From an uncultured Pseudomonadota bacterium (GTDB lineage Bacteria; Pseudomonadota; Gammaproteobacteria; CAJXQU01), in NCBI GenBank assembly GCA_913058255.1, contig CAJXQU010000002.1, positions 248,001 to 312,000 on the forward strand: a stretch of 64,000 nt of DNA, written 5' to 3'. This document shows, one piece after another, positions 11,574 to 48,251 of this stretch (position 1 is the first letter of the stretch; every line of letters begins with the position of its first letter). A program made the position numbers and the translations under genes. The notes below the pieces were generated by a model, which was given only the letters and a program-made list of their open reading frames with translations, did no database searches and was not told the DNA's origin.

Positions 11574-13709
11574 ATGAACAACAAATGTAAAATCACCGTA
11601 AAAAGTATAGCATCGATTTTAAGTCTGGCTTTTTCTTCTCAGAGCTATGCAGAACACGCTGAACTACCTAGCATTAATGTGACAGGCACACAAAGTGAAT
11701 TTTCTTCTTCTGTCATTCAGCCTGACTTCATCAACGCTCCGCAAGGTGATATTGCTAAACTACTTCCTTATGTCCCCGGCGCTAATGTGAACTCAAATGG
11801 TGCACTTACAGGGATCGCTCAATACCGTGGCATGTATGGTGACCGAGTCAATATCATGATTGACGGTATCAAGATAAGTTCTGGTGGGCCGAATGCTATG
11901 GACCCCGCGCTATCCTACATTCCTAAATCTCGCTTACAGTCCTTAGAAGTTATTCGAGGAATTGCGCCCGTTCGGTCAGGTAACGAGACCATCGGTGGTA
12001 GCATGATGACACGTTCAATACATAGCGAGTTTGGTGATGATGATAACGTTGAGTTTCATGGACAAGTCGCAGTAGGCGGGCAAACAGCCGACACAAGTTA
12101 TGACGTCTCAACGTTATTGTCTATCACAAATCAAAATCATCGATTTCAGCTAGCAGCTAGCCGAGAAGAGGGGGACGATACCCGTTTTGATGGTGGAGAC
12201 ATTCACCCAAGTGAACATGAGAGAAATGTTTATGATTTAGGCTATGGGTATCAACAAGACGATCATGAAATAGCTGTCAACTATGAGCGGCGAGACTCCA
12301 ATGCCACCGGTACGCCAGCACTACCTATGGATATCGTTTTCGTCAATGCTGACATCGCTAGTGCTAAATACAAAGGTGTTTGGAACAAGGCTGAAATCAA
12401 TAGTAAGGTCTACTACACTCAGGTGGATCACAAAATGTCGAATTTCGAACTACGTGATGCACCGACCATGACCATGATGAACGGCATGACCATGCCTATG
12501 CGTCGCTTTGCCTTAACTGATAGCGAAGATTATGGTTATGGCTTTGATGCAGCCGTTAGTTTTGCAGGTGGAACCTTGAAACTTGGAACTGACGGTCATT
12601 TTGCAGAACACAACGCCGATATCTTCAATCCAATGGACAGCCGTTTTCTGGTCAAAAATTTTCACGAAGTAGAGCGTGATGTATTTGGATTTTATGGAGA
12701 ATGGGACAAATCTATTTCAAATATTTGGGATCTACAGCTAGGCATGCGTTATACACGCATAGAAATGGATGCCGGAGAAGTTTCAGCAGGCGGTTTCCCA
12801 ATGGCCATGCTACAAATGCAAGCAAACACACTAGCAACAAACTTCAATGCTAGCGCTCGTGAGCAGACAGATAATAATATTGACCTGGTCGTTAAGTTGA
12901 CGAAACATATCAACAATAGCACTGACCTAGAAGTCGGAATTGCTCGCAAAACGCGTTCACCTTCGTATCAAGAACGCTACCTATGGTTACCACTGGAATC
13001 AACAGCTGGACTGGCCGATGGAAATAACTATGTAGGTAATGTTGATCTAAAACCTGAAGTTGCTTATCAATTTGAATTGGGTATCGATCAACACACTGAC
13101 CAATACTACCTCTCACCACGAGCTTTCTATCATCATGTTGATGATTATATTCAAGGTGTCGATCATACTTCTGGCGGCGCATCGAGAATGTTCCATAACA
13201 TGCTAACGGGCATGTTGGGATCCAACTCAAAACTCTTACAGTTTGCCAATGTTGACGCACGGCTTTATGGGATCGATCTGAACTGGGGTGTTTTCATCAA
13301 TCCACAATGGCGGCTTAATGGTGTGTTGAGTTATGTCGAAGGCAAACGTCGGGATACTGAAGACTATCTATATAGAATCTCACCGATAACCACGACACTT
13401 GGTTTAACCCATCAGCGTAACGATTGGTCCGCAACCTTAGAAACGGTTGCAGCAAGTGCCAAAAGTCATGTTTCATCAGTAACGAATGAGCAGAAAACAG
13501 GTGGTTATGCCTTATTAAACCTCTATGCCCAATATCAATCTCACCACTCAGGATTTAGCCTTACAGCCGGAATAGACAACCTGCTTGATAAAACCTACAC
13601 CTCACATTTGTCTGGCTACAACCGGGTGAGCAATAGCGATGTTGATAAAGGGCAGAGAGTGCCAGGGGCAGGGATTAGTGCTTACGTAAGCATCAATTAC
13701 GAATGGTAA
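11574..13709 (+). CDS. TonB-dependent outer-membrane receptor, probably copper (OprC/NosA-like)
   Basis: This 711-residue outer-membrane receptor has a signal peptide (cleavage near residue 26, SYA-EHAE), a plug domain (about 30-150; GDIAKLLPYVPGANV, RGMYGDRVNIMIDG) and a beta-barrel ending in an aromatic residue (INYEW). Loop regions are rich in Met: TMTMMNGMTMPMRR at about 298-311, MAMLQMQ near 418, and HNMLTGMLG near 542. The segment SPSYQERYLWLPLE and the following GNVDLKPE resemble OprC/NosA copper receptors. Met-rich loops also favour Cu. Import would need TonB-ExbB-ExbD, and such an operon lies at 44.1-47.3 kb. Substrate assignment is inference from similarity and Met content; a cobalamin or siderophore role is less likely. 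Confidence 0.8.
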   Translation: MNNKCKITVKSIASILSLAFSSQSYAEHAELPSINVTGTQSEFSSSVIQPDFINAPQGDIAKLLPYVPGANVNSNGALTGIAQYRGMYGDRVNIMIDGIKISSGGPNAMDPALSYIPKSRLQSLEVIRGIAPVRSGNETIGGSMMTRSIHSEFGDDDNVEFHGQVAVGGQTADTSYDVSTLLSITNQNHRFQLAASREEGDDTRFDGGDIHPSEHERNVYDLGYGYQQDDHEIAVNYERRDSNATGTPALPMDIVFVNADIASAKYKGVWNKAEINSKVYYTQVDHKMSNFELRDAPTMTMMNGMTMPMRRFALTDSEDYGYGFDAAVSFAGGTLKLGTDGHFAEHNADIFNPMDSRFLVKNFHEVERDVFGFYGEWDKSISNIWDLQLGMRYTRIEMDAGEVSAGGFPMAMLQMQANTLATNFNASAREQTDNNIDLVVKLTKHINNSTDLEVGIARKTRSPSYQERYLWLPLESTAGLADGNNYVGNVDLKPEVAYQFELGIDQHTDQYYLSPRAFYHHVDDYIQGVDHTSGGASRMFHNMLTGMLGSNSKLLQFANVDARLYGIDLNWGVFINPQWRLNGVLSYVEGKRRDTEDYLYRISPITTTLGLTHQRNDWSATLETVAASAKSHVSSVTNEQKTGGYALLNLYAQYQSHHSGFSLTAGIDNLLDKTYTSHLSGYNRVSNSDVDKGQRVPGAGISAYVSINYEW

Positions 13710-13864: not shown

Positions 13865-13886
13865 AAAAAAAGCGACATATCGTCGC
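13865..13886 (-). terminator. Rho-independent terminator of the candidate small RNA
   Basis: A 5-bp GC-rich stem (13872-13876 with 13882-13886) with a 5-base loop is followed on the minus strand by seven T. The gene immediately downstream is convergent, so it must end a minus-strand transcript. Confidence 0.65.
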
Positions 13887-14040
13887 CTGAATTTTTATCT
13901 CCTCTACTTCCATGCAGAGGTTTGAAGTCTTTTTACTTCTTATCTTTGGGGAATTGTTGTCCCTAAATCAACGTCACATCCGTGTGAGGTATAACTAATA
14001 CTATTCTGTTCCCCATCGGCCGTCAACCATCTGTCACAAC
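13865..14040 (-). ncRNA. Candidate CsrB/RsmY-type small RNA (CsrA-sequestering)
   Basis: Read on the minus strand, this segment holds five GGA motifs in about 150 bases. One is in the loop of a 7-bp hairpin (13901-13920, loop ATGGAA), one is the CGGA tetraloop of a 5-bp hairpin (13974-13987), and one sits in GGGACA just inside a GGG/CCC pairing (13948-13963). The other two are in single-stranded GAGGAG and GGGGAAC. The RNA ends at a GCGAC/GTCGC hairpin followed by seven U (13865-13886). GGA in hairpin loops plus a terminal terminator is the signature of RNAs that titrate CsrA/RsmA. The 5' end is a guess: no clear GacA upstream box was seen. A comEA 3' untranslated region is the main alternative. 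Confidence 0.45.
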
Positions 14041-14187: not shown

Positions 14188-14448
14188 CTACTGACCAATC
14201 ACCACAAATTGGCGGTTACTTTCAAGTGTCTTTTCACCGATCCCATTGACTAGCACTAAGTCCTCTATTGATTTGAATGCACCATGATTATTACGGTACG
14301 CAACAATCGCTGCCGCCTTAGCGTCACCCACACCTTTCATATTAGTGGCTATAGTGGTTGCATCAGCGGTATTTATATCGATAGTCTCTGCTGCAAAAGC
14401 GAGTGAAGATAAGGTTAGGAAAAGTGCTGCTGTGATGTGTTTTAACAT
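14188..14448 (-). CDS. Secreted helix-hairpin-helix protein, ComEA-like
   Basis: The 86-residue product has a clear signal peptide (about residues 1-19, ending AFA-AE). It is followed by a short domain starting IDINTADA and containing two helix-hairpin-helix motifs (KGVGDAKAAAIVAYR and VNGIGEKTLE). This is the ComEA-type periplasmic DNA-binding module. In naturally competent gammaproteobacteria ComEA binds incoming DNA in the periplasm and ratchets uptake; many genomes also carry single-copy homologues of unproven role. It stands alone with no other competence gene nearby. A good Shine-Dalgarno (GGAGG) precedes the ATG. Confidence 0.85.
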   Translation of the reverse strand: MLKHITAALFLTLSSLAFAAETIDINTADATTIATNMKGVGDAKAAAIVAYRNNHGAFKSIEDLVLVNGIGEKTLESNRQFVVIGQ

Positions 14449-34014: not shown

Positions 34015-34972
34015 TATTAGCATCGTAATACCTCTCTATAATAAAGAGAAATATTTGGCTCGTACTTTAGAGTCTGTACTTAGTCAATCCTATCAAGATT
34101 TTGAAGTCATTATTATTAATGATGGTTCAACAGACCAAGGAGCAAGTATTGCTGCAGAGAAGTTTCCATCATCAAAAATACGTTTGATCAATCAAGAGAA
34201 CACAGGTGTTTCATCTGCTAGAAACAATGGGGCTCTTCATTCATCAGGTGAGCTTATCATATTTTTAGATGCCGATGACTATTGGGATAGTTCATTTTTG
34301 GAAATTATGGTTGAAGGCATTGGTCAGCACAATTGGGCTATGTGTGCAGAATCACATCAAAAAGGAGAGTCTGTAACTTTAAGAGGTTTCGACAATGTAA
34401 AATCAGGTATGTTTAATGTTAGTGATTTTTTTACATTATTCTTGAATAACCAAACGGGTTGTCCTGGAACTATTGTTATGAAAAGGAAATTTTATAACAA
34501 GTATGGTGGTTTTCTTATAGGCCTTAAGAATGGTGAAGATGTTGAAATGTGGCTTCGTTTAGCAGTAAATGATTCGAAAATACAATACTGTTCAGATAAA
34601 CTAGTTCACTATAGTTACGCGATACCAGAAGGGGCTACTATGAGTAATAGATGTGAAGATTCTTTAATTTCTTTTTGGATTGCTATGGAGAAGAATCACC
34701 CTACTAGTATGAAAAATAAATGCAATAAACCTTTTTTGATGTGTTTTAATCACTTTGCAAATAGGGCATATCGTTTTTACACACGTTCTGGTTACAGAAA
34801 AACTGCAAACTACTTAGCAAATTCAGATCATTACGTACCAACAACCATTAATAGCTTAGTTAGTAAATCACCATTTTTTATTGAAAAGGTAGTATTCACT
34901 TTACTAAGACTAATAACCTTAAGAATCTCGCTTGTAAAAAAAAATATTACAGGTTTGATTAATAAACAATGA
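33998..34972 (+). CDS. Glycosyltransferase family 2
   Basis: The 324-residue protein opens with the GT-A fold signature ISIVIPLYNKEKYLARTLESVLSQSYQDFE (in two parts), then NDGSTDQG and FLDADDYW, the DxD-type metal site near residue 92. A GEDVEMWLRLA segment near 185 is the usual second acidic motif. Cytoplasmic, it would add one sugar to the lipid-linked unit. It overlaps wzx by 17 bases and the polymerase by 4 (ATGA). Confidence 0.9.
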   Translation: MKPQPNISIVIPLYNKEKYLARTLESVLSQSYQDFEVIIINDGSTDQGASIAAEKFPSSKIRLINQENTGVSSARNNGALHSSGELIIFLDADDYWDSSFLEIMVEGIGQHNWAMCAESHQKGESVTLRGFDNVKSGMFNVSDFFTLFLNNQTGCPGTIVMKRKFYNKYGGFLIGLKNGEDVEMWLRLAVNDSKIQYCSDKLVHYSYAIPEGATMSNRCEDSLISFWIAMEKNHPTSMKNKCNKPFLMCFNHFANRAYRFYTRSGYRKTANYLANSDHYVPTTINSLVSKSPFFIEKVVFTLLRLITLRISLVKKNITGLINKQ

Positions 34973-36342
34973 CTTCTTATACCCTCGGATTTTCTTTAGT
35001 TATTTTTGGTATAACTACTTTATTTACATTTCCCACATGGAAAAAATCATTTAATAAACTCAAAGGGAATGAACGGTTAACTGTGATTGCTTGGGTGTTA
35101 ATATTCGTTGGACAAGGGCAAATGTTTGCGCAAAAAGAAGCTGCTGTTGGTATCTCTACATTAGGCACAGGAGCTTACTATCAAGTCACTTGGATGGCAC
35201 TTGGCTCACTGTTTATGTTAATCGCTTTGATTTCAGGGAAGGTAAATACAAAACATTGTTCTATAGCGATAATAGGCCTACTTCTGTATGGGGTTGTTGG
35301 GTTAGGAGGCTCTGCTTTTTCACCATCACCTAGCTTAAGCATCTATAAATCATTGCAAATTATTATGGATGTAGCTCTTCTAGTTACCGCTCTTTCATTT
35401 ATAAAAAATCCAAGATTACTAATAAATTTGTCATATTTTCTACTTATACTTATTCTCGTAAGTTCCGCTATGGGTGGTTTTTTATGGCCTGAGTTAAATT
35501 TCCAAAATATTTATGGAGCCTATACAGGTGTACTTCACAGCCATTACCCTCAGGTTCATGCAAACGAATTGGGTTTATTAGCTGCAATAATTTTAATAGC
35601 ATCAGTTCGCCGTACTTTTGAGAAAGGTTTAAAGTACCAAAGGTATTACTGGGGTAGTGTTGCCATATTAGCCATTACAGTGCTCTACCATGCTCAAGCA
35701 CGAACTTCTCTTGCATCAGCAACGATAGCAATATTTATTATGGCTATATTCATACCAAGAATGCGTCCTTTCACAGTACTACTAACTATAGGACTTGGTA
35801 GTTTTTTAACACTGCAGTGGCTCAATGGAGGTATTAATCTTAATATTGAAGGGTCAACTGTGGAAACATATCTACGAAGAGGCGCTTCAGATGAACAAAT
35901 ATCGTCACTATCGGGACGCACCGAGCTTTGGAGGATAGGCTGGAAGATGTTTATTGATTCACCAGTCTTTGGACACGGAATGGATGCGGGCGTACGTTAT
36001 GGTGGACGACTATATGGATTGCCTGCAGGTACGAATATGCATAGCTCTCATTTTCAAATATTAGCTAACATGGGTTTTCTTGGCTACCTATCATGGCTAA
36101 TATTTGTTTTAGCTGTAACCGCTTCTTTATGGAAAGGAGTTTGGAACTCACCTAATAGCCTTCGTAGCGAGGAAGGGAGATTTCGTCTCGAATTGATACT
36201 AGTTGCTTCTGTAATATTATTTAGAACTTTTCTAGGCCACGTCCTTGTCACAAATAGTTTTAGCTTATTAGTATTTATAGCATTGTTTGTGTCTATTTTA
36301 GCTTCGCGAAATGTGCAAAAATCTTCAAAGCTAGTAATTTAA
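34969..36342 (+). CDS. O-antigen polymerase/ligase-like membrane protein (Wzy)
   Basis: The 457 residues have ten or more membrane helices and a long periplasmic loop before the last helices. The loop carries the Wzy_C pattern: SGRTELWRIGWKMF, FGHGMDAG, then HSSHFQILANMGFLGYLSWL near residues 350-375. Such proteins polymerise repeat units or ligate them to lipid A. With a Wzx beside it, polymerase is more likely. It begins 4 bases inside the previous gene. Confidence 0.85.
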   Translation: MTSYTLGFSLVIFGITTLFTFPTWKKSFNKLKGNERLTVIAWVLIFVGQGQMFAQKEAAVGISTLGTGAYYQVTWMALGSLFMLIALISGKVNTKHCSIAIIGLLLYGVVGLGGSAFSPSPSLSIYKSLQIIMDVALLVTALSFIKNPRLLINLSYFLLILILVSSAMGGFLWPELNFQNIYGAYTGVLHSHYPQVHANELGLLAAIILIASVRRTFEKGLKYQRYYWGSVAILAITVLYHAQARTSLASATIAIFIMAIFIPRMRPFTVLLTIGLGSFLTLQWLNGGINLNIEGSTVETYLRRGASDEQISSLSGRTELWRIGWKMFIDSPVFGHGMDAGVRYGGRLYGLPAGTNMHSSHFQILANMGFLGYLSWLIFVLAVTASLWKGVWNSPNSLRSEEGRFRLELILVASVILFRTFLGHVLVTNSFSLLVFIALFVSILASRNVQKSSKLVI

Positions 36343-36399
36343 AATCATGATATCTATGAAAAAACTTGGAAACATGAAGATTTTTAATGAGGGTTTACA

Positions 36400-37131
36400 G
36401 TGAATAGTGAAGAGCAAGCTCAAGTTTTACTTAAAAAGAGTGCCAGGAAAGCTTCTCCAGGTGGTAAGGCGAAGTTACTTAACATCCCAAGAAACTGGTT
36501 GCATCAAGCATTTTTTTATATGGATAAAGGTGAGCGCTTTGTTAGAGTTTTTGTCTTATTGTTAGAAACAATCTTAGTTTATTTGCTAGCGTCTTTTGTA
36601 TTTTCAACAGTTAACATAACTCTACTCCTCACCATAGCTTTTTTGTTTGTTTATACATGGAACTGGGCAACTAATGGACTTTTTTGGGCTTTGATTATTT
36701 TTACATTTCCAAAGCTGAAAAATCCAGGGGCTGAAAAAACAGTTCACTATCTCAACCAAATGCGTATACGTCTAGCCAAAGACGATTGTATTACAGGTAT
36801 AGCAATTTATGGTAGCGTTACAAGAGAAAAGTGGCATAGTAGAAGTGATATTGATATTAGGTTTTTGAGGAAACAGGGTTTTTTATATACGATCCTAGCT
36901 TCATGGGTAACAATGAAAGAACGTTTCAGGGCATTTTTAAGTAAACAACCTATGGATCTATTCTTAGCTGACAATACTGACTTTTTAAAAAAAATGAGAT
37001 CTGACGAGATACCACTTCTTCTTCTTTGTCAGGATAAAAACCTTCAGACTATGTATCCAAACTGTAAAGAAAGAAGCATTACAATTCGCGATCTATTAGG
37101 TAAACAAGCTAATGTTTCTATATTAGATTAA
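36400..37131 (+). CDS. Membrane-anchored nucleotidyltransferase-domain protein
   Basis: This 243-residue protein begins at GTG with GAGGG upstream. Two hydrophobic helices (about 45-70 and 70-105) precede a cytoplasmic domain. That domain has the polymerase-beta-type signature AIYGS near 138, then SDIDIRF near 149-155. The third acidic residue may be the Asp in MDLFLAD near 188. This is the minimal nucleotidyltransferase fold (GS-x-DxD) found in MNT and kanamycin nucleotidyltransferases. A membrane-tethered version inside a polysaccharide locus is unusual, and its substrate is unknown. It lies between wzy and a GT4 gene, 2 bases from the latter. Confidence 0.6.
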   Translation: MNSEEQAQVLLKKSARKASPGGKAKLLNIPRNWLHQAFFYMDKGERFVRVFVLLLETILVYLLASFVFSTVNITLLLTIAFLFVYTWNWATNGLFWALIIFTFPKLKNPGAEKTVHYLNQMRIRLAKDDCITGIAIYGSVTREKWHSRSDIDIRFLRKQGFLYTILASWVTMKERFRAFLSKQPMDLFLADNTDFLKKMRSDEIPLLLLCQDKNLQTMYPNCKERSITIRDLLGKQANVSILD

Positions 37132-37133
37132 AT

Positions 37134-38258
37134 ATGAAAATATTAAGTCTTCACTGGGGATTTTCACATGGTGGCGTTGCTACTTATGCTGAAAATATTG
37201 AACCCATAGGTTCACTACCTTCTGTAAAATTACGCTCACTTTGTGTCTTGCCAAACTTTCGTGATATCAACCAGAAATCACTCGACTCTCTAGATAAATC
37301 TATAATTCAAATTAACAAACTTTCGTCACTAAGCTGGACTTTTGAAGTGCGAAAATATATTGCTAAAGAGCAGCCTGATATTATTTTCACGCATGGTTTC
37401 AATGCCCACTTTGTAAGTCTTTTGACAACAATACTATTGCCTCTCAAAGTAAAACGGATAGTGTCATATCACGGTGATTATTTTCCTAATACAACAAAAC
37501 AGCGCTTTATGGCTCCAATATACAACGGATTTACTAATTGGTTTTTACGTAAAAAAGCAGATGGTATTATCTGTGTTGCTCACCATACAGTTCAAAAACT
37601 TTTAAAAAAAAACATTCCGGACTATAAGTTCGCTGTAGTACATAATGGAATTCCCTCTTATAAATCATTAGAAGATACGAGAGAGACTCTTAGATCAGAA
37701 TGGGGATATGACGAAAGCCATATAATTATATGTATTGCATCTCGTCATGAAAAAATCAAAGGCTTGGAATACCTTATAGAAGCTTTTTCAATAGTTTCAC
37801 CAAAATTTTCTGAGTTAAGGCTGGTCATGATTGGTGAAGGGACTCAAACACATGCTCTTAAGACACTTGTCGCTTTAAAAAAATTAGAGTCCAGAATACA
37901 GTTTGTAGGGCAACGAAGTGATGTAGCGGACTGTCTATCAGCAACTGATATTTTTGCACTCCCTTCATTATCAGAAGCACACTCTATTGGCTTACTTGAA
38001 GCAATGCGAGCTGGAAAAGCGATTATTGCAACTGAGATAGAAGGTAATATAGAAACAGTAAGTGATAACAAGGAGGCATTAATAGTTCCAGTTAAAGATG
38101 CTTCTTCATTATCGGTTGCTATAGAGAAATTACTAAAGGATACAGATTTACGAGCACGTCTTGGAAAAGCTGCATCAAAACGTTTTAATTCAGAGTTTAC
38201 AGTGGAAATGATGCGATCAAAAACAACACAATTGTTGAAAGACTTTAGTAATAGGTAA
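37134..38258 (+). CDS. Glycosyltransferase family 4
   Basis: The 374-residue GT-B enzyme has a first domain with HGFNAH and SYHGDYFP motifs, and a C-terminal Rossmann domain with the donor-site E-x7-E pattern (EAHSIGLLE near residue 283). CIASRHEKIKG marks the domain junction. Retaining nucleotide-sugar glycosyltransferases of this type act on the lipid-linked intermediate. It starts 2 bases after the nucleotidyltransferase gene, so the two are probably translationally linked. Confidence 0.88.
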   Translation: MKILSLHWGFSHGGVATYAENIEPIGSLPSVKLRSLCVLPNFRDINQKSLDSLDKSIIQINKLSSLSWTFEVRKYIAKEQPDIIFTHGFNAHFVSLLTTILLPLKVKRIVSYHGDYFPNTTKQRFMAPIYNGFTNWFLRKKADGIICVAHHTVQKLLKKNIPDYKFAVVHNGIPSYKSLEDTRETLRSEWGYDESHIIICIASRHEKIKGLEYLIEAFSIVSPKFSELRLVMIGEGTQTHALKTLVALKKLESRIQFVGQRSDVADCLSATDIFALPSLSEAHSIGLLEAMRAGKAIIATEIEGNIETVSDNKEALIVPVKDASSLSVAIEKLLKDTDLRARLGKAASKRFNSEFTVEMMRSKTTQLLKDFSNR

Positions 38259-38261
38259 TAT

Positions 38262-39401
38262 ATGAAGATTAGTTTTTGTATTTATAATTTTGTTGATGAA
38301 AAACTACCATTGCAACCTTGGCTTACAATTAGGATATTAGCAGAAGGGTTGGTTAAAAGAGGACACCATGTTTCGATCATTACTGATGTTCAAAACCCTT
38401 CAGAATTAAACGGAGTGTCTTTAGTTACTGTTGCCTCTCTTCGAGGGACAAATTCATTAGAGGTTCAGGAAGTCTTAAAAAAAATCAATCCTGATGCTTT
38501 AGTTTTTTTACCTACTCCATTAAGCCTAGCAACTACATCATGGTTAAATACGATTGATTGCAGAAAAATAGGATTCGCATCCTATCCTTTTTATAACTTT
38601 AAAGAACTTTACATCGCAATAAAAAAACTAGCATGGTCTGACGTGCAGCAATATTTGAGACATATCCTAATCCCCAAAATGGTATGGAAGGCATTCTCTA
38701 AAAGAAGAGTTGATGTCCTTATTTCACAATCTAGTACAACAACTAACCGACTTCAAGAAATATTAGGTAATTCAACGAAATGCTTATTCATTCCACCAGG
38801 GATAGATAAAGAAGCTTGGCCTCTGGTTTTAAATAAAAAAGACTTAAATAAGAAAAGTATTAACCTTCTTTATTTAGGCTCAGCTATCCCTATCCGTGGT
38901 TTCGACTTAGCGCTTGAATCATTAGTTTTTTTAATTGATGAAAAAGTCAATTTGAGAATTCTCGCTCGTGCTGCAAACGAAACAACTTTGAAACCTATGC
39001 TAGATAAGGTTAAAAAACTGGGCTTACAAGAGCACGTAGAGCTTGTTGGTGGCTGGATAGAAAGAAATCAGTTAGTTACTGAGATACACAATGCAGACGC
39101 TGTCTTACAACCTTTTTTACTAGTCCCTTCTGAACTACCAGTTACTGCTATGGAGGTGATCTCATGTGGTACTCCTGTCATTGGTAGTAAAATTGATGGA
39201 ATGCCTTCTACCATTGGACCTGCAGGAACGGTCACAAAACATGGCTGTCCTAAAGCTCTCGCGGAAACAATTAAAGAGTTTTTATATTCTTCTTCTTTAC
39301 GTTCAGACTGGAGTGAAGGATGTCTATCCCAACGTGCACAAATGCAGAGCTGGGACTCAATTATTCAACAGTGGGAGAATGTTTTAGAAAATGGAAGTTG
39401 A
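38262..39401 (+). CDS. Glycosyltransferase family 4-like protein
   Basis: The 379-residue protein has GT-B form: an N-terminal domain (KISFCIYNF, LAEGLVKRGHHVSIIT) and a C-terminal domain with LYLGSAIPIRGFD near 205. The donor region reads SELPVTAMEVISCGTPVIGS, a variant with six residues between the two Glu rather than the usual seven. Its last 11 bases overlap the thymidylate-kinase-like gene. Sugar specificity cannot be told. Confidence 0.8.
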   Translation: MKISFCIYNFVDEKLPLQPWLTIRILAEGLVKRGHHVSIITDVQNPSELNGVSLVTVASLRGTNSLEVQEVLKKINPDALVFLPTPLSLATTSWLNTIDCRKIGFASYPFYNFKELYIAIKKLAWSDVQQYLRHILIPKMVWKAFSKRRVDVLISQSSTTTNRLQEILGNSTKCLFIPPGIDKEAWPLVLNKKDLNKKSINLLYLGSAIPIRGFDLALESLVFLIDEKVNLRILARAANETTLKPMLDKVKKLGLQEHVELVGGWIERNQLVTEIHNADAVLQPFLLVPSELPVTAMEVISCGTPVIGSKIDGMPSTIGPAGTVTKHGCPKALAETIKEFLYSSSLRSDWSEGCLSQRAQMQSWDSIIQQWENVLENGS

Positions 39402-40062
39402 AATCGAACGCTTACCATCACTTATTTCGATAGTAGGGGTTGATGGTAGTGGAAAAACAACTCTTACAAATTGGTTAGCTGAAGAGTTAGTAAGTAGGAA
39501 TATAAAACCACAACTAGTTTGGTCTAGATTTAGAAATTATCTGTCTAAGCCAATGTTAGCCATGACTAGAGTTAGCGGACATAATCGTTATAAAACAATC
39601 GACGGAGTTCGTTTTGGGTTTCATGATTTTGATAAGTTAGTCTGTTACCGTGAAGTTTTTGCATTGCTTCAAGCCATTGATGTCAATATAGGTGCTTACA
39701 AACATATACACAGCAAGAGGCAACAAGCAGATTTATTAATCTGCGAGAGGTGCCCATGGGATACGCTAGTTGATGTAGCAACTGATACTGGATTGTATAC
39801 TTTATACTCTTCATGGTTAGGCAAACAGTATGTTCGTTCAATGAAAGGGGACAACACCTGTGTTATATGGTTATCAAGAAGTTTAGATAAGATTTTAGAA
39901 ACAAGGGCTGAACTTAAACACGATAATAAGTTACCCGCGCGTATCGATGGTTATAGGGAGCTATCAAAACTCAACTCTTGGAAGGTAATTGATAATAACG
40001 GTTCTTTAGAAAGTACGAAAAAGCAAATTCTTCAAGCACTAAACATTGATTATGTTACCTAA
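39391..40062 (+). CDS. Thymidylate-kinase-like P-loop protein
   Basis: The 223-residue protein has a Walker A motif GVDGSGKTTL at residues 16-25. A CERCPWDTLVD segment near 126 replaces the DRY-type motif of thymidylate kinase. An R-rich lid follows (RAELKHDNKLPARIDGY). It is in the thymidylate kinase superfamily by pattern, but is divergent and unlikely to be the housekeeping Tmk. Such P-loop kinases turn up in polysaccharide loci with unknown role, perhaps phosphorylating a sugar or lipid. It overlaps the previous gene by 11 bases. Confidence 0.7.
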   Translation: MEVEIERLPSLISIVGVDGSGKTTLTNWLAEELVSRNIKPQLVWSRFRNYLSKPMLAMTRVSGHNRYKTIDGVRFGFHDFDKLVCYREVFALLQAIDVNIGAYKHIHSKRQQADLLICERCPWDTLVDVATDTGLYTLYSSWLGKQYVRSMKGDNTCVIWLSRSLDKILETRAELKHDNKLPARIDGYRELSKLNSWKVIDNNGSLESTKKQILQALNIDYVT

Positions 40063-40095
40063 TAGTTGAACGTTTCTAACGAAGGAAAGTATAGA

Positions 40096-40935
40096 ATGAA
40101 ACTGCCTGTATCTGTAATAATTTTAACATTCAATGAAGAGGAAAATATTGAAACTTGCCTCAACTCTGTATCTTGTTGTGATGATGTTATCGTTTTAGAT
40201 TCGCAGAGCACTGATTCCACGTGCTCAATTGCAAAGTCTAAAGGCGCTAGGGTGTTTGAACGTCCTTTTGATAACTATGCCAATCAACGTAACTATGCGC
40301 TTAATGAGATTGAGTATAAATACCCTTGGGTATTAATGCTTGATGCTGATGAAGAAGTAACACAAGAACTTCTAACCGAAATAAACAATAAACTATCGAT
40401 AGTCAAAGATGACGTCTCTCTATTTCGTTTACGACGCAAAGATTATTTTATGGGTCGTTGGTTAAAATACAGTACAAATTACTCTTCTCTATGGTTTGGT
40501 AGATTAATGAGATTAGGACATGTTTGGATCGAAAGAGAAATAAATGAAGAGTTTCATACAGATGGAAAGATTGAGCAACTCGATGGTGCAATAGTACATT
40601 ATCCATTCAACAAGGGTATTCATCAGTGGTTAGAAAAACATAATAGATATTCAACAATGGAAGCTGAGCATTTAATTAGTGAGAATCCAGACTCGTATGA
40701 AATAAAGTCCTTGTTGAGCAAAGATCCTGTTCTTCGTAGAAAAACATTAAAATCTATCGTCTATTCTTTACCCGGTAGACCTGTAATTATGTTCTTTGGT
40801 AGGTACATATTTGCAAAAGGGTTTCTTGATGGTAAAGCAGGTTTAAGTTACTCAATTCTCAAATCTATTTATGAATATATGATTAGCTGTAAAGTTCTAG
40901 AACTACAAAGAAAAAAAGATGGAATGTCTCTTTAA
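40096..40935 (+). CDS. Glycosyltransferase family 2 (WaaE/KdtX-like)
   Basis: The 279-residue GT-A enzyme has VSVIILTFNEEENIE, then VLDSQSTDSTC and MLDADEEVT, the DxD metal site near residue 90. Its NQRNYAL and the later basic region resemble the WaaE/KdtX group of beta-1,4-glucosyltransferases. I start at the ATG at 40096, with GGAAAG 7 bases upstream. An in-frame TTG at 40066 would add ten residues. The stop is adjacent to the ATG of the next gene. Confidence 0.85.
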   Translation: MKLPVSVIILTFNEEENIETCLNSVSCCDDVIVLDSQSTDSTCSIAKSKGARVFERPFDNYANQRNYALNEIEYKYPWVLMLDADEEVTQELLTEINNKLSIVKDDVSLFRLRRKDYFMGRWLKYSTNYSSLWFGRLMRLGHVWIEREINEEFHTDGKIEQLDGAIVHYPFNKGIHQWLEKHNRYSTMEAEHLISENPDSYEIKSLLSKDPVLRRKTLKSIVYSLPGRPVIMFFGRYIFAKGFLDGKAGLSYSILKSIYEYMISCKVLELQRKKDGMSL

Positions 40936-42180
40936 ATGAAAGTTTTGGTTTACGGCATTAACTATTCTCCAGAGTTGACTGGTATTGGTAAATATACAGG
41001 CGAGATGGCAGCTTGGTTTCAAAAGAAAGGTCATTCAGTAAGAATTATTACTGCTCCACCGTATTATCCACAATGGGAAGTTGATAAGAAATATAGCTCA
41101 TTCTTATATCGTCGAGAAACAATAGATGGCGTGCGAGTTTACCGCTCACCATTGTATGTTCCAAGTAAGCCAAAAACATTAAATAGACTTCTGCATTTAA
41201 TGAGTTTTTCTCTCAGCAGTTCATTGCTTTTAATCAAGCATTTGTTCTGGAAGCCTGATGTAATTATCTCAATCGAACCAACAATGTTTTGTGCGCCTAG
41301 TACTTTACTCTTTTCTAAAATTTCAAAAGCAAAAAGTGTGTTGCATATACAAGATTTTGAGTTGGATGCCATGTTAGGTCTAGGCATGGGGAAAGAGGGA
41401 GGGATATCTCGCTTTGGTTCAAAAATCGAATCTAAAATAATGTCTAAGTTTGATATGGTTTCTTCTATATCTTATAGCATGGTTCAATTAGCAAATAAGA
41501 AAATGGAAGGGGAGAACGAATCTTTATATTTCCCTAATTGGGTTGATATTGACTTTATTACACCTAACGCTAACCGAGGTTACTTTTTAAACAAGTGGGA
41601 AATTCCAGAATCTAAAAAAGTAGTGCTTTACTCTGGTAACCTTGGAAAAAAACAAGGGTTGGAAATTGTTCTGCAAGCTGCCGAAAGCATGCTTTCTCAA
41701 GAGGAAGTCTTGTTTATCATTGTCGGTACTGGAGCTGCAAAGGATGAGTTATTAAGCCAAGCAAAAAAATTAAAATTAACCAACGTTCAGTTTCATCCTT
41801 TACAAGAATATAAAGATCTACCTTCATTGATGACACTCGCAGACTTGCATCTTGTCATTCAGAAAAAGGGCGCCGCAAATGCCGTTCTCCCCTCAAAGCT
41901 AACAACTATTCTTTCTGCAGGTGGAACAGCTTTGATTACAGCAGAGAAAGATACAGAACTTGGACTTTTTTGTGAAAAAAATCCTGAGGCAGCTTATTGT
42001 GTTGAGCCAGAAGAGCTAGATATCTTTACTGAGAAGTTACGTACGATTCTGTCTTCAATAGATGTATCAACGCGTGCTCATAATAATTCTGCTCGCTCAT
42101 ATGCAATAACATATTTAGAAAAAAACAAAGTACTAGAAAAATTTGAGCAAGATATCCAAGAATTAGTCGCTGAAAGTTAA
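40936..42180 (+). CDS. Glycosyltransferase family 4, WcaI-like
   Basis: The 414-residue GT-B enzyme starts with KVLVYGINYSPELTGIGKYTGEM and has the APPYYPQW block, which is characteristic of WcaI-type fucosyl/glycosyltransferases of colanic acid loci. The C-terminal part shows VLYSGNLGKKQGLE near residue 232 and LPSKLTTILSAGG near 315. It directly abuts the GT2 stop codon. It is the last gene of the AT-rich block before the exosortase. Confidence 0.85.
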   Translation: MKVLVYGINYSPELTGIGKYTGEMAAWFQKKGHSVRIITAPPYYPQWEVDKKYSSFLYRRETIDGVRVYRSPLYVPSKPKTLNRLLHLMSFSLSSSLLLIKHLFWKPDVIISIEPTMFCAPSTLLFSKISKAKSVLHIQDFELDAMLGLGMGKEGGISRFGSKIESKIMSKFDMVSSISYSMVQLANKKMEGENESLYFPNWVDIDFITPNANRGYFLNKWEIPESKKVVLYSGNLGKKQGLEIVLQAAESMLSQEEVLFIIVGTGAAKDELLSQAKKLKLTNVQFHPLQEYKDLPSLMTLADLHLVIQKKGAANAVLPSKLTTILSAGGTALITAEKDTELGLFCEKNPEAAYCVEPEELDIFTEKLRTILSSIDVSTRAHNNSARSYAITYLEKNKVLEKFEQDIQELVAES

Positions 42181-42285
42181 GTTTAATACCATATTTAACA
42201 TTGATATAAGCCCAAATTCTCCTAATACACCGTATTTTCCTATAAGATTACTGCTTACGATAATAACAATGATCACAGCTACCTT

Positions 42286-43881
42286 ATGACCACAGAATCA
42301 AAACTGCCTGTAACCAAATTCAAACTTGATCTAACCAGTATTATTTTCATTGTTTGCTCAATAGTTCTCTTTTCTGCTCTGTATTTACAAGACTATATCA
42401 ATCTTTTTAATACTTGGAATACTAGAGAGGAATACAGTCATGGGTTCTTGATTCCTGTATTGAGTGTTTTCTTTCTTTGGCAAAATAAGAATGAATTATC
42501 GAAGATACCATTTACAGGTTCCATCTTCGGCTTATTCATTCTAGCTTTTGGGTTACTGCTTTTCTTTCTTGGTAAGTTAGCGACCTTAAACGTCATTATC
42601 CAATACTCTATGCTCGTTTCGATAACAGGACTATTGTTCAGTTTCACTGGGTTTAAAAGCCATAAATATCTATGGGTACCTTTGTTCTTTTTGATCTTCA
42701 TGATCCCTCTACCACCATTCTTATATAACAACCTCTCTCAGAAGCTTCAGCTTATTTCATCTGAGCTAGGTGTTGCGGTAACAAGAGCTTTTGGAATTAG
42801 TGTCTATTTAGAGGGCAATGTTATTGATTTAGGTACTTATAAGCTACAAGTTGTAGATGCTTGTAGTGGCCTTCGCTACCTCTTCCCTTTGATGAGCTTT
42901 GGCTTTATATGCGCCTATTTGTTTAATGCTCCATTCTGGCAGAGAGCAGCAATCTTCTTTTCAACCATACCTGTCACCGTTCTTATGAACAGCTTTCGTA
43001 TTGGTGTGATTGGCGTTTTAGTTGATCGCTGGGGTACTGAGCATGCGGAAGGCTTTCTGCATGACTTCGAAGGTTGGGTCATTTTTATGGCTTGCGTAGC
43101 AATTCTCTTTGCTGAAATGTGGTTGCTCAACAAGTTTTTCAGTAAAAAGAAAAGGCCTCTTCAAGAAGTGTTTGGTTTGGAGTTCCCTGAGACTGAGAAA
43201 CACACAGGCCCAATAAAAGTCCGAAAAATACCAAAGACATTCGTAGTTTCTCTTGTCTTACTTATGGCTGCAGCTCTAATGAGTGTCAACTTGGAAAATC
43301 GTGAAGAAATCATTCCAGAACGTACAACATTAATTAACTTTCCAGAGCGACTAGATGATTGGGGTGGTAAACACGGCCATTTGGAAGAAGTGTACCTAAA
43401 GACCCTTGGTGGTGAAGGTATGACAGATCATATTATCACGGACTATGCCAGTGATGCTGGTGACAAAATCAACTTATATGTTGCTTATTATGAGTCACAA
43501 AGAGCGGGTGGTTCTATCCACTCTCCACGTTCGTGTATTCCTGGTGGTGGTTGGATCATTAAAGGTGTTACCCAAGTCCCTCTAGAAGGCGTACTTGTCG
43601 ACGGCAAGCCTGCGATGGTTAACCGTGTTGAGATTATGAAGGGCGATTATAAACAATTGGTTTATTACTGGTTTCAGCAGCGTGGTCGTTCGATTACCAA
43701 TGAATATCAACTGAAATGGTTCTTGTTTTGGGATTCGTTAACCCAACATCGTAGTGATGGCGCCTTGTTGCGTTTGACGACTTCTATTCTGCCTAATGAA
43801 AGTTGGGAAGAGGGTGATAAGCGTTTGATCAAGTTTTCCCATGCGTTAGGTAACAAGCTTGATGGTTATATTCCTGAATAA
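42286..43881 (+). CDS. Exosortase fused to an EpsI domain
   Basis: The 531-residue protein joins an exosortase (about residues 1-295, eight or so membrane helices) to an EpsI-type periplasmic domain (about 325-531). The transpeptidase-like triad is visible: C193 (VVDACSGLRY), R238 (NSFRIG) and H259 (GFLHDFEGW). The EpsI part shows SPRSCIPGGGW. Exosortases cut PEP-CTERM-type tags at the inner membrane, and EpsI is tied to exopolysaccharide assembly. The architecture fits XrtA or the VPLPA-type XrtD; I cannot decide between them. Cargo candidates are at 24.1 kb and 47.5 kb. It follows the glycosyltransferase gene after 105 bases and is less AT-rich than that block. Confidence 0.9.
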   Translation: MTTESKLPVTKFKLDLTSIIFIVCSIVLFSALYLQDYINLFNTWNTREEYSHGFLIPVLSVFFLWQNKNELSKIPFTGSIFGLFILAFGLLLFFLGKLATLNVIIQYSMLVSITGLLFSFTGFKSHKYLWVPLFFLIFMIPLPPFLYNNLSQKLQLISSELGVAVTRAFGISVYLEGNVIDLGTYKLQVVDACSGLRYLFPLMSFGFICAYLFNAPFWQRAAIFFSTIPVTVLMNSFRIGVIGVLVDRWGTEHAEGFLHDFEGWVIFMACVAILFAEMWLLNKFFSKKKRPLQEVFGLEFPETEKHTGPIKVRKIPKTFVVSLVLLMAAALMSVNLENREEIIPERTTLINFPERLDDWGGKHGHLEEVYLKTLGGEGMTDHIITDYASDAGDKINLYVAYYESQRAGGSIHSPRSCIPGGGWIIKGVTQVPLEGVLVDGKPAMVNRVEIMKGDYKQLVYYWFQQRGRSITNEYQLKWFLFWDSLTQHRSDGALLRLTTSILPNESWEEGDKRLIKFSHALGNKLDGYIPE

Positions 43882-44101
43882 AATCCTGTTCGTTTTTTGG
43901 GTTTAACTGCTGAAAACCGTCCATTTTTATGGAATAAAACGGCACATGGTTCGCTGCTGAAACCTGTGTAGTTTTCGATCTGCTCAGATCTTTGGTATGT
44001 TAGCTATCAAAAAGGAGCTTATTCTCGCCATTTGAGCTTGAATGATGCCTTCTCTATAACTAGAAATATTCCAAGGATAGGAATTAAAAAGAGGTCATAC
44101 C

Positions 44102-44509
44102 ATGAAAAAACTCATGACGTTGTTCATGCTTATCATGTCTTGCTCTGCTGCTTTTGCGGCACAGGATAGTATCGAAATCGAACTGAATAAGCTGGAAGAC
44201 AAAGACAATAGTTGTCGTGCTTATCTGGTTTTCAAAAACCAAACGGATTCACATTTCAACGAGTTCAAACTTGATCTGGTCATGTTCGGCTCCGATGGCA
44301 TTATCAGCCGTCGCCTCGCAGTAGACTCATCTCCCTTACGTGCTAATAAGACCAGCGTTAAGCTATTTGATATTGAAGGCCAGAGTTGTGAGGCCATCAG
44401 CTTGATCTTGATCAATGATGTTTTAAGCTGTCGTGATGCTTATGAACGTGATGACTGTGTTGATCTTATCGAGGCATCCTCAAAAGGTAATGTCTCTTTT
44501 GTAAAATAA
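44102..44509 (+). CDS. Small secreted protein of the TonB operon
   Basis: The 135-residue protein has a signal peptide (about residues 1-19, AFA-AQDS) and a compact domain with four Cys near residues 38, 99, 113 and 120, which could form two disulfides. DUF-type conserved positions are not recognised with certainty. A good ribosome site (AAAGAGG) precedes the ATG. It leads the exbB-exbD-exbD-tonB gene set by 41 bases. The same gene order is known, as I recall, in other proteobacterial TonB clusters, so a role in that periplasmic machine is plausible. Confidence 0.7.
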   Translation: MKKLMTLFMLIMSCSAAFAAQDSIEIELNKLEDKDNSCRAYLVFKNQTDSHFNEFKLDLVMFGSDGIISRRLAVDSSPLRANKTSVKLFDIEGQSCEAISLILINDVLSCRDAYERDDCVDLIEASSKGNVSFVK

Positions 44510-44550
44510 TAATGAATAAGGGCTCGTTAGTAAGCCCGCAGGAATGACCT

Positions 44551-45228
44551 ATGAACGCAACTTTTGAACGAGCTACTTTTTTATTGGGTGCTGGCGGTCC
44601 AGTTCTTATTATTTTGTTGATTTTGTCGATCGTTGCATTGGCTGTCATCTTGATGAAGTTCTGGCAAATGAGAAAGCTTTCGTTAGGTGACGTAAGTTTT
44701 GTGCAACATGTTTTAGATTACTGGCGGGCAGGGCAAGTTAATGCCGCCATGGTTGAGCTTTATCGCACCTATCACCCCGCTGCACGCGTTTTAGAAATCG
44801 CTATTCGCGGCGTTGCTGAAAGGAAGGCTGATGAAGCAACCATTCGTGAAGAAGTGATGCGTGAAGGTGTGGAGCAAATAGAAAGTATGCGATCTCATCT
44901 TCGTGGCCTTGAAGTCATCGCCACCATCAGCCCACTACTGGGCTTGCTCGGAACGGTTATGGGAATGATTAATGCTTTCCAGCAAATGGAAGCTGCTGGC
45001 ACTCAAGTTAGTCCTTCGGTTCTCTCAGGTGGCGTTTGGGAAGCCTTATTGACGACTGCGGTTGGTTTAGCTATCGCTATTCCTGTGGTTGTTGCCCTTA
45101 ATTGGTTTGAGAGCAAAACGGAGAAAGCCAGACATACGATGGAAGATGCTGCGACGCGGATTTTCACTGTCCAAATGTCCTCTCTTAAAGAACGAAACGA
45201 AGTGACTGAGACTGAAGAGTTAACCTAA
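44551..45228 (+). CDS. exbB: MotA/TolQ/ExbB proton-channel family protein
   Basis: The 225-residue protein has three helices. The first is near 12-35. The core pair is in the second half: HLRGLEVIATISPLLGLLGTVMGMI near residue 130, then SGGVWEALLTTAVGLAIAIPVV near 165. These hold the conserved Thr and Gly residues of ExbB/TolQ that line the proton path. With ExbD it energises TonB. It is followed at once by exbD, the stop and next start sharing a base (TAATG). Confidence 0.92.
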   Translation: MNATFERATFLLGAGGPVLIILLILSIVALAVILMKFWQMRKLSLGDVSFVQHVLDYWRAGQVNAAMVELYRTYHPAARVLEIAIRGVAERKADEATIREEVMREGVEQIESMRSHLRGLEVIATISPLLGLLGTVMGMINAFQQMEAAGTQVSPSVLSGGVWEALLTTAVGLAIAIPVVVALNWFESKTEKARHTMEDAATRIFTVQMSSLKERNEVTETEELT

Positions 45229-45632
45229 TGCAGTTTGAACCCAATCTGCCTATCCAAGCCCGGCGTAGGGCTTTGATCGGCTTAACACCCTTGATCGACG
45301 TGGTGTTTATTCTTTTATTATTTTTTCTACTCGCGTCGAGTTTTTTGGACTGGCATACCATTAACTTAACGACTCCAGCGACCCAAGGGATAGTGAAAGG
45401 TTCTTCTGGCGGTGCTGTTTTGATCAGGCTGGGGGCTAATGGCGCGCTTGATCTGAATGGCCGACCTGTTTTGATTGATGAGCTGCCGAGTAAGTTAGCT
45501 CAATTTCTAACGAACAAACCCGAGCAAAAAATTCTAGTGAGGCCTGCAACAGGCGTACCTTTACAACCTGTTGTGCATGTTTTAGATGCCGTAAAAGAGG
45601 CGGGCGGAACGAATGTTTCGTTAACGCGTTAG
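45228..45632 (+). CDS. exbD: ExbD/TolR-family protein, first copy
   Basis: The 134-residue protein has one N-terminal helix (about 18-38), with the essential Asp of LTPLIDVVFILLLFF at its start (the D of LID). A periplasmic domain follows (VLIRLGANGALDLNG, VRPATGVPLQPVVHVLDAVKEAG). ExbD subunits line the motor channel with ExbB. It overlaps exbB by one base. Confidence 0.9.
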   Translation: MQFEPNLPIQARRRALIGLTPLIDVVFILLLFFLLASSFLDWHTINLTTPATQGIVKGSSGGAVLIRLGANGALDLNGRPVLIDELPSKLAQFLTNKPEQKILVRPATGVPLQPVVHVLDAVKEAGGTNVSLTR

Positions 45633-45655
45633 TCTCGAGCATAACGACAAGAATA

Positions 45656-46060
45656 ATGAAATTTCCTAAACCACAAAAAAAAGCCCAGGTTATTGATCCT
45701 ATTTTGCCCTTGATCAATGTCGTTTTTTTATTATTGATTTTTGTCATGATGATGTCCCGCGTCGAAAGCACTAATGATTATGAAGTATCGCCACCAGTGT
45801 CAACCAGCGAAGAGCCTGCTGGACAACGTGACAGCGTGTTGATTCTGACAGAAGATGGTCAAATCCAACTCAATAATCTTGCCTTGGATAGTCAGGCTTT
45901 GTTGCAATACGCAAGAGAACAAAAACAGAGTTTTCCTGATGAGATCGTCAAAATAAAAGCCGATGCTAATGTTGATGCGATGAAATTGATCGCTCTGATG
46001 GAAAACTTGCGAATCGGCGGTGTCAATAATCTCGTGTTGTTAACCGAGAAACGGAACTAA
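45656..46060 (+). CDS. exbD: ExbD/TolR-family protein, second copy
   Basis: The 134-residue protein repeats the ExbD layout. Its helix is near 16-38. The family motif DPILPLINVVFLLLIFVMM has Asn at the position where the first copy and most relatives have the essential Asp. The periplasmic domain (VLILTEDGQIQLN, then VKIKADANVDAMKLIALMENLRIGGVNN) is well conserved. It lies 23 bases after the first copy. Two ExbD copies in one operon is common in such clusters; the Asn substitution suggests a structural role for this one. Confidence 0.88.
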   Translation: MKFPKPQKKAQVIDPILPLINVVFLLLIFVMMMSRVESTNDYEVSPPVSTSEEPAGQRDSVLILTEDGQIQLNNLALDSQALLQYAREQKQSFPDEIVKIKADANVDAMKLIALMENLRIGGVNNLVLLTEKRN

Positions 46061-46067
46061 ACACACC

Positions 46068-47264
46068 GTGCCGCAAGCCGTCATAAAAAGCATGCGTCCT
46101 TCAACAAAAAATCATCAACGTGCATGGATGTTGGTTATCACGCTTTCGCTGTTATTACATTTTTTTCTTGTTACTTGGTTTTCTTCCAGAACACCGAAGT
46201 TTCCTGATGTAAATCCGAATGAATTTAAAGTAGGACTGATGTCATCAGAAGGCACCGGCGATACATTACAAGCCAGCCTGCCGGATATAGTCGCGGTGGC
46301 TGATGTTGAAACGGAAGAATCCGGCATTGTTTCTCAACAAGAAATTGCGAAGGATCTTTCGCAAGAGCAGATCCTTGAAATTACGGAACAAGTTCCCATC
46401 GAGCAAACTTTGATCGAGAATGTTGAACTAGCAACGGTGGTGACGCCTGAGACCAGTTTTTTACCCGATGTTTCACCTCCCGCTCTACAAAATAAAAACG
46501 AAACACCCGATCAGAAACCAGAACAATCTCAACCGGTCGAAACCGTCGCTACGCTCATGCCTGCGATGGCTTCAACAGACATTGAGACTGTTGAAACGGT
46601 CGGTGTGTCTGCTGAGATTGAAGATGTCGCACCGAGTAATGACTTTTTTAAACCCGCTGAAGTTCTGAGTGCAGACGAGCCGCTATCGACACTACCGATA
46701 GAGCAGCTTTCTGCGGTTGCTGCACCCGAGGCTATTCTGGCGAATATTTCACCGGAATTAGCCAAGCATGATGTCGAGATTTTAGAAATTAAAGCACGTG
46801 ATCTGATCATACAAAAAAGACCGGTGCCACCGAAGCCTAAACCTGTGGTGACCCAAGGAGAAAATGGGAATAGTTCTCTATCATCAGCACAAAGTCTATT
46901 GGCTAGATCGGGGCAACGATCTGTCGAATCTGCCAACTCACCATCGTCAGATCAATCAAAACTAACACCTTTAGCCATTCCAAAAGAGTATATGTTGGAA
47001 TTAAAGTCGTGGTTAAATCTGTATAAAAAGTATCCACAACAAGCCTACCGATTAAAGCAGCAAGGTGTGGTTATTGTCAGTTTGAAAGTAGAAAAAACGG
47101 GCAAGATCATTTCTTCTGAGATCAAACGAAGCTCGGGACATAAATTGCTCGATCAAGAAGTTAATAACATGATCAAAAGGGCATCTAAAATACCCGCGCT
47201 CCCCGCCGATTTTCCGCGCGACACACTTGAACTACTCATTCCTATTCGTTTTAAGGTTAGATAA
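46068..47264 (+). CDS. tonB: TonB energy-transducer protein
   Basis: The 398-residue protein has a cytoplasmic stub, one helix (about residues 22-40) and a long acidic Val/Glu/Ser-rich linker. A short proline-rich stretch (RPVPPKPKPVV) lies near residue 252. The C-terminal TonB domain (about 310-398) includes YPQQAYRLKQQGVVIVSLKVEKTGKI. At nearly 400 residues it is longer than typical TonB (about 240), all because of the linker. It carries no other domain. GTG at 46068 is used; an ATG at 46092 is an alternative start. It would drive receptors such as the copper-type one at 11.6 kb. Confidence 0.85.
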   Translation: MPQAVIKSMRPSTKNHQRAWMLVITLSLLLHFFLVTWFSSRTPKFPDVNPNEFKVGLMSSEGTGDTLQASLPDIVAVADVETEESGIVSQQEIAKDLSQEQILEITEQVPIEQTLIENVELATVVTPETSFLPDVSPPALQNKNETPDQKPEQSQPVETVATLMPAMASTDIETVETVGVSAEIEDVAPSNDFFKPAEVLSADEPLSTLPIEQLSAVAAPEAILANISPELAKHDVEILEIKARDLIIQKRPVPPKPKPVVTQGENGNSSLSSAQSLLARSGQRSVESANSPSSDQSKLTPLAIPKEYMLELKSWLNLYKKYPQQAYRLKQQGVVIVSLKVEKTGKIISSEIKRSSGHKLLDQEVNNMIKRASKIPALPADFPRDTLELLIPIRFKVR

Positions 47265-47510
47265 ACCTAGAACACCATTCGTTATTAATTAACATGCAAA
47301 AAGATTAGTTTTACTTCAACTTTATGATGTAAACACTTGATTTTTTATTTTTCTTCTTAACTTATCAAGTTATTTGTTTGTAAGTGTTCGATCTTTCTGT
47401 TATACCTGAATTGTAAACAACTGTAAAAAAGAGGTGGTTTTTATAGCTTTGAATATTGTTTATAGAAACTACTTATTTACCAATAACTTTAGTTAGGGAA
47501 GGGGAATTTC

Positions 47511-48023
47511 ATGACTATATTAAGACAAACCGCACTGTTGTTCATAATGCTTGGGCTATCAATCAGTGCAAACGGCTATGTTTTAGATTCAGCCACACTC
47601 GATCCAACTGAAATTAATGGATCTCTATCTGGCGGCTACAACATTTCAAATTTATCCGGCACATTCAGCGAAGACATTACTTTTAGTGTTGTCGGTGCTC
47701 CTGCTGTAGGGATTTCGGGGGTTGCAAATGTGATATCTATTCAATTTGCTGGATTTTTTGGCGTTGACAACTTATCAGCTAGCTTGAATGGCTCACCTCT
47801 ATCAATTTCCGCTGTCTTTTCGTTTTTGAATGTTGGCGTATTAAATACCATTTTCACTAATGGTGATTACACATTAACGTTTGCAGGAACGGCATTTTCT
47901 AATGGTGCAGCTTTATCTGGTAATGTCGCGATTAACTCTGTGCCTGTTCCGGCAGCTTTTTGGTTGTTTGGAAGTGCACTCGTTGGGCTCTTTGGTTTTA
48001 GAATGCATAGAAAGACAAGCTAG
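47511..48023 (+). CDS. VPLPA-CTERM-type exported protein
   Basis: The 170-residue protein has a signal peptide (about 1-22, SANGYV) and a Ser/Gly-rich beta-type mature part. The C-terminal tag is VPVPAAFWLFGSALVGLFGFRMHRK: a Val-Pro-Val-Pro-Ala motif, a hydrophobic helix and a basic end. This is the VPLPA form of sorting tag rather than PEP. A well-placed GGGAAGGGG lies ahead of the ATG. It is a candidate cargo of the exosortase at 42.3 kb. Confidence 0.85.
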   Translation: MTILRQTALLFIMLGLSISANGYVLDSATLDPTEINGSLSGGYNISNLSGTFSEDITFSVVGAPAVGISGVANVISIQFAGFFGVDNLSASLNGSPLSISAVFSFLNVGVLNTIFTNGDYTLTFAGTAFSNGAALSGNVAINSVPVPAAFWLFGSALVGLFGFRMHRKTS

Positions 48024-48086
48024 CATGGTTTGAAATTGTTATTTAGAGCTTGATCTAAAACACTCGAGCATCCTTTAAGTATCATT

Positions 48087-48113
48087 AAAAGCCCCTTTAT
48101 AAGGGCTTTTTTT
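48087..48113 (+). terminator. Rho-independent terminator after the VPLPA-CTERM gene
   Basis: An 8-bp stem (AAAAGCCC with GGGCTTTT, 48087-48094 and 48103-48110) with an 8-base loop runs into seven T. It lies 63 bases past the stop. Confidence 0.8.
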
Positions 48114-48251
48114 ATGGCTTATATTTTTATTTTCCTGTGGAAGGGGGAACTCATACAAGGTTGTCTTTGGAAGGGTGGCAGTAGCTAGCTAAAGCAATCA
48201 CTCAAAATGCCGATAAGAAAGGTATCACCCATAATAATAATCGTGTACACA

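Follow-up and report, generated by a model that had tools for sequence, protein, structure and literature searches.

A candidate CsrA-titrating small RNA of the RsmY/RsmZ kind in an uncultured gammaproteobacterial lineage

The question raised by this locus is whether a stretch of DNA with no evident protein product encodes instead a small RNA that titrates CsrA (RsmA). The window, by which we mean the whole stretch of 64,000 nucleotides that was analyzed, has a gap where comEA, whose 3' end is at 14188 on the minus strand, meets a convergent TonB-dependent receptor gene (plus strand, ending at 13709). Within this gap, the region of interest shares the strand of comEA and follows it at a distance of 160-320 bases. 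As the original prediction held, it appears to be free of protein-coding genes: no open reading frame of at least 60 aa overlaps it, so no plausible gene occurs there. The reading that we favor on sequence grounds, with a probability of roughly 0.8, is a stand-alone RNA of ~120 nt that would act in trans as an RsmY/RsmZ-like CsrA sponge, with a sigma-70-type promoter of its own (14026-13998, minus strand).

Position and anatomy of the locus

The features assigned to the locus are as follows.

13868..13992, minus strand: predicted small RNA gene, ~120-125 nt (fold z -3.5 and a homologue at G001:C18)
13998..14026, minus strand: conserved promoter, TTGACG - 17 nt - TAGTAT (consensus scan and alignment with G001)
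13970..13989, minus strand: hairpin 1, ACCUCACACGGAUGUGACGU, with GGA at 13981 (two compensatory pairs relative to G001; GGA unpaired, 0.98)
13946..13972, minus strand: second site, AGGGA, with GGA at 13962 (the predicted fold pairs AGGGA with UCCC)
13924..13939, minus strand: GGA-free spacer stem, GAAGU/ACUUC (kept in G001)
13901..13920, minus strand: hairpin 3, CCUCUGC-AUGGAA-GUAGAGG, with loop GGA at 13911 (one compensatory pair; GGA unpaired, 1.0)
13866..13888, minus strand: intrinsic terminator, AGGCGAC-GAUAU-GUCGCUU plus U run, stem 13888-13870 (kept in G001)

The 5' end of the RNA, at ~13991, is inferred from the promoter, and the 3' end falls at ~13,868, in the T run past the terminator. 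On the minus strand of 14035..13867, GGA occurs at window positions 14012, 13981, 13962, 13911 and 13902. All five of the motifs originally counted are therefore present. However, because the conserved promoter places the start near 13,991, the GGA at 14012 lies in the promoter spacer and is likely untranscribed, which leaves probably four in the RNA; for the same reason, the proposed transcript of near 170 bases shortens to ~120 nt. A promoter-like TTTAAA/TATATT farther upstream (14069-14042) was dropped, being without conservation. Folding recovers both of the GGA-bearing hairpin loops that had been described, AUGGAA on a 7-bp stem and CGGA on a 5-bp stem (UCACA/UGUGA), the latter loop becoming ACGGAU if the closing A-U pair opens, and the terminator stem with its U run is likewise found. 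The extra GGA at 13902 forms the 3' foot of the hairpin 3 stem. The convergent TonB-dependent receptor gene (window 11574-13709), whose nearest model is the copper receptor at 180 bits, under the cut-off of 472, possibly shares the terminator of the small RNA gene.

The GGA count is no evidence in itself, since five motifs are what base composition predicts (dinucleotide shuffles contain 5.0 on average; p = 0.64); the presence of three ANGGA motifs in the 169-nt region is not significant either (p = 0.23). The unusual part is the presentation of ANGGA in hairpin loops. Two ANGGA loops on stable hairpin stems give p = 0.0025 against shuffles, and p = 0.0003 for the revised transcript of ~125 nt. 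The same arrangement occurs in 3 of 6384 scanned segments of the 64 kb, and these 3 overlap, all at the small RNA locus. As the ANGGA-loop statistics were picked after the motif had been seen, we weigh them as moderate evidence. The folding energy corresponds to a z of -3.1 for the 169-nt region, -3.5 for the revised 125-nt transcript, and -4.8 for the copy in the congener described below.

A diverged homologue in a congener

The deciding evidence is a diverged copy in a congener. A covariance model built from the window sequence alone (R1) was searched over 274 genomes of the class and returned one convincing match, G001:C18:48693-48881 on the minus strand of a congener (48.6 bits, E 2.5e-10). 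DNA BLAST against 143 relatives, including two congeners, found short chance matches only and missed this homologue. E-values from the home-made covariance models are rough, as evidenced by one spurious-looking R1 match that reached E 4.9e-6; this match, in G193, extends over the end of a coding frame and has no ANGGA loops. Two lines of evidence outside the model point to the place found in G001. It came up independently as a weak full-length match to the RsmZ family, and a sequence-only local alignment of the window and G001 copies scores 277, against a null distribution with mean 162, sd 14 and max 215 (144 unrelated sequences). Neither G002, the third genome of the genus and a fragmented one (480 contigs, 93% complete), nor 369 genomes of the class yielded a further homologue. 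Candidates set aside include R2 matches in other families (G327, G074 and others), in which the architecture is absent, a pattern match in G002:C143 that by eye apparently lies inside a coding frame, and an 87% match at G000:C2:118001 in the window's own genome, which is an AT-rich stretch beside a moeA-like gene and no second copy.

The homologue comparison, which comprises two sequences only, reveals a conserved block that starts at the promoter. Both copies have a promoter of the form TTGACR-N17-TARTAT (TTGACA - 17 nt - TAATAT in G001), and upstream of it the two copies have no 8-mer in common over 300 bases. Both also have a hairpin with an ACGGAU loop, on the stem UCACA/UGUGA in the window's genome (G000) and UUGCA/UGCAA in G001 (closing A-U counted), and a second kept hairpin with the loop AUGGAA or AGGGAAA and a GGA at its 3' foot; the spacer stem and terminator are likewise common to both. 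Every one of the 26 modelled pairs is present in both copies; four differ on both sides (compensatory) and four on one side. The alignment behind this count follows a structure taken from the window copy, which inflates the paired fraction. The loop motif remains constant, as ANGGA, while the stems change. The expectation that the GGA hairpins would covary and keep their loops in a relative is thus borne out for these two sequences, with two compensatory pairs in hairpin 1, one in hairpin 3, variable linkers, and both ANGGA loops retained in G001. When the partners are slid by 1-3 columns as a control, pairing falls to 37-52%, and a shuffle control of the pair count gives 43/500, which is weak with two sequences. 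MAFFT, run without structure, aligned hairpin 1 and the terminator identically. The G001 copy has, in addition, AAGGA in a further hairpin loop opposite the AGGGA of the window copy.

This pattern of conservation bears on whether CsrA binding is the primary role of the RNA or is secondary to base pairing, as in an Hfq- or ProQ-type small RNA that also carries CsrA sites. McaS of E. coli has few CsrA sites, in hairpin loops, and the window copy could be viewed as McaS-like, with only two loops exposed, A/U-rich linkers left unpaired and a U-rich tail. It is the paired and ANGGA elements that are kept between G000 and G001, however, whereas the linkers differ in both length and sequence. Short stretches apart (GATAA and TTCAGGCG, close to the terminator), no long conserved unpaired seed is evident, and, unlike McaS, the RNA has no indicated base-pairing function; nor does it match McaS. 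We consider the base-pairing explanation unlikely.

Known RNA families and genomic context

At gathering thresholds, the only Rfam matches in the window are two tRNAs. The Rfam CsrB/RsmY models, proposed originally as a check, give the window copy no backing, as no Csr or Rsm family matches it even at E up to 10; CsrB (RF00018), CsrC (RF00084) and RsmY (RF00195) match neither copy at that level. When the G001 copy is compared with 4227 Rfam families, in contrast, the lowest E-value belongs to PrrB/RsmZ (RF00166), at 0.074 and 16.9 bits, far under the gathering score of 44; this match is full length and on the right strand. The TwoAYGGAY motif (RF01731; threshold 43 bits) has no match in G000, G001 or G002. 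Further weak matches to RsmZ, found in G000 and G002, were rejected as gene 3' ends and ordinary terminators, and matches to AaHKsRNA82, AgrB and sau-59 are sub-threshold.

In architecture, the RNA resembles RsmZ/PrrB and RsmY/RsmX of Pseudomonas, which share with it a size near 120 nt, a promoter of their own, an end terminator, and several copies of ANGGA spread over hairpin loops and linkers. It differs from them in having fewer exposed sites and no GacA box found upstream, and from RsmZ/PrrB in sequence, the G001 copy scoring below the gathering threshold and the window copy being unmatched. GGA-loop hairpins also bind CsrA in CsrB and CsrC of the enterobacteria (binding here is predicted), although those RNAs are much longer and have many more sites. 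The hairpin 1 loop, ACGGAU, conforms to the AYGGAY of the TwoAYGGAY motif, but the second loop, AUGGAA or AGGGAAA, does not. The sequence type of the small RNA is most likely lineage-specific and undescribed.

With two sequences only and no Rfam Csr family over threshold, one could instead suppose that the small RNA is conserved in the genus for some unrelated function and bears its GGA loops by chance. We find this quite improbable, as the ANGGA loops are kept on compensated stems, and the three ANGGA hairpin loops of the G001 copy were matched by 0 of 3000 shuffles.

In G001, the small RNA gene is flanked by an NtrC-type regulator and an AAA/APH protein. These flanks differ from those in the window, which argues against a UTR. 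The comEA gene of G001 retains its ugd neighbor, followed by a Y1-type transposase, and the small RNA is absent there. Absence beside comEA, together with presence elsewhere in the same genome, implies an independent gene that changes position. That there is no separate RNA, only the comEA 3' region or, on the other strand, the 3' UTR/terminator of the TonB-receptor gene, is very improbable despite the location 160-320 bases past comEA on its strand and a terminator stem usable on both strands, because comEA of G001 lacks the element, which occurs elsewhere with its own promoter, and because folding favors the minus strand (z -3.1, vs -2.2 for the plus), which carries the U run. The Y1_Tnp transposase beside comEA in G001 is, by appearance, of the REP-associated type, and is flanked by AAAGGGTAACGTCCCCTTTATT repeats resembling its REP elements (L033 660-720, 1400-1450).

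CsrA-sponge RNAs act in trans, and the stand-alone RNA proposed here would, by inference, do the same. The window also contains an exopolysaccharide cluster (34969-49208) of the exosortase (EpsH) type, with an O-antigen (Wzy-type) ligase-like protein, glycosyltransferases and a GGDEF response regulator. The original prediction had linked the RNA to these exopolysaccharide and c-di-GMP genes. That link is unsupported, since the homologue has different neighbors and such RNAs act in trans; position in the window is no reason to name the exopolysaccharide or GGDEF genes as targets.

Proposed function and the Csr system of the host

Transcription from the 14026-13998 promoter would yield an RNA of ~120 nt, whose ACGGAU and AUGGAA loops would bind CsrA dimers, with two probable further sites, AGGGA and the GGA at 13902. 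Sequestration of CsrA would then relieve the mRNAs that it represses. Each RNA may hold one to two dimers; only two predicted sites in the window copy are well exposed, so titration capacity would be low. Sequestration of RsmA requires several GGA motifs (PMC2375449). The SELEX consensus for CsrA, RUACARGGAUGU, shows no variation in its ACA and GGA, and its six-base loop is closed by pairing of AC with GU (PMC7652899); hairpin 1, CACACGGAUGUG, has the ACA, GGA and UGU of this consensus. The features of the class found here include what appears to be a stand-alone non-coding gene with a kept promoter and terminator.

G000, G001 and G002 each have a single canonical CsrA, with L4 and R44. Together with a diverged homologue at an unrelated site in G001, the presence of CsrA supports, at the level of sequence, the prediction of a CsrA/RsmA-titrating small RNA. 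No gacA/uvrY was found beside uvrC, and the closest GacA-like regulator (G000:C2, ~158257) is 42% identical to E. coli UvrY. On the UvrY/SirA/GacA equivalog model, the best regulator scores 203 bits, below the cut-off of 280, whereas E. coli UvrY scores 451. The GacA-like regulator adjoins a HisKA_3 kinase with a LapD/MoxY periplasmic sensor domain, not a BarA-type hybrid kinase. This pair (L052 1501-3530) is kept in all three genus genomes and is a possible stand-in for GacS/GacA. A search for the GacA box (TGTAAG-N6-CTTACA), which is typical of the class but not required, found none upstream of either copy. As G000 is a draft assembly, 96% complete, the absence of GacA is provisional, and a diverged GacA in this genome is possible. 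We tentatively raise, as somewhat less than an even prospect, that the RNA represents a Csr small-RNA family whose host lineage kept CsrA and lost GacS/GacA (BarA/UvrY), with titration driven by another regulator or by a constitutive promoter.

RNAs that regulate RsmA have already been predicted computationally in species without GacA (PMC5568370), so the small RNA described here adds a member to a known kind. CsrA-sponge RNAs diverge fast enough for library models to miss them; this one was spotted by eye in raw sequence, with later confirmation from a covariance search that found its counterpart in a congener. An uncharacterized gammaproteobacterial lineage thereby gains a candidate RNA controlling CsrA, and with it a test case for CsrA titration where a clear GacA ortholog and GacA box were not found.
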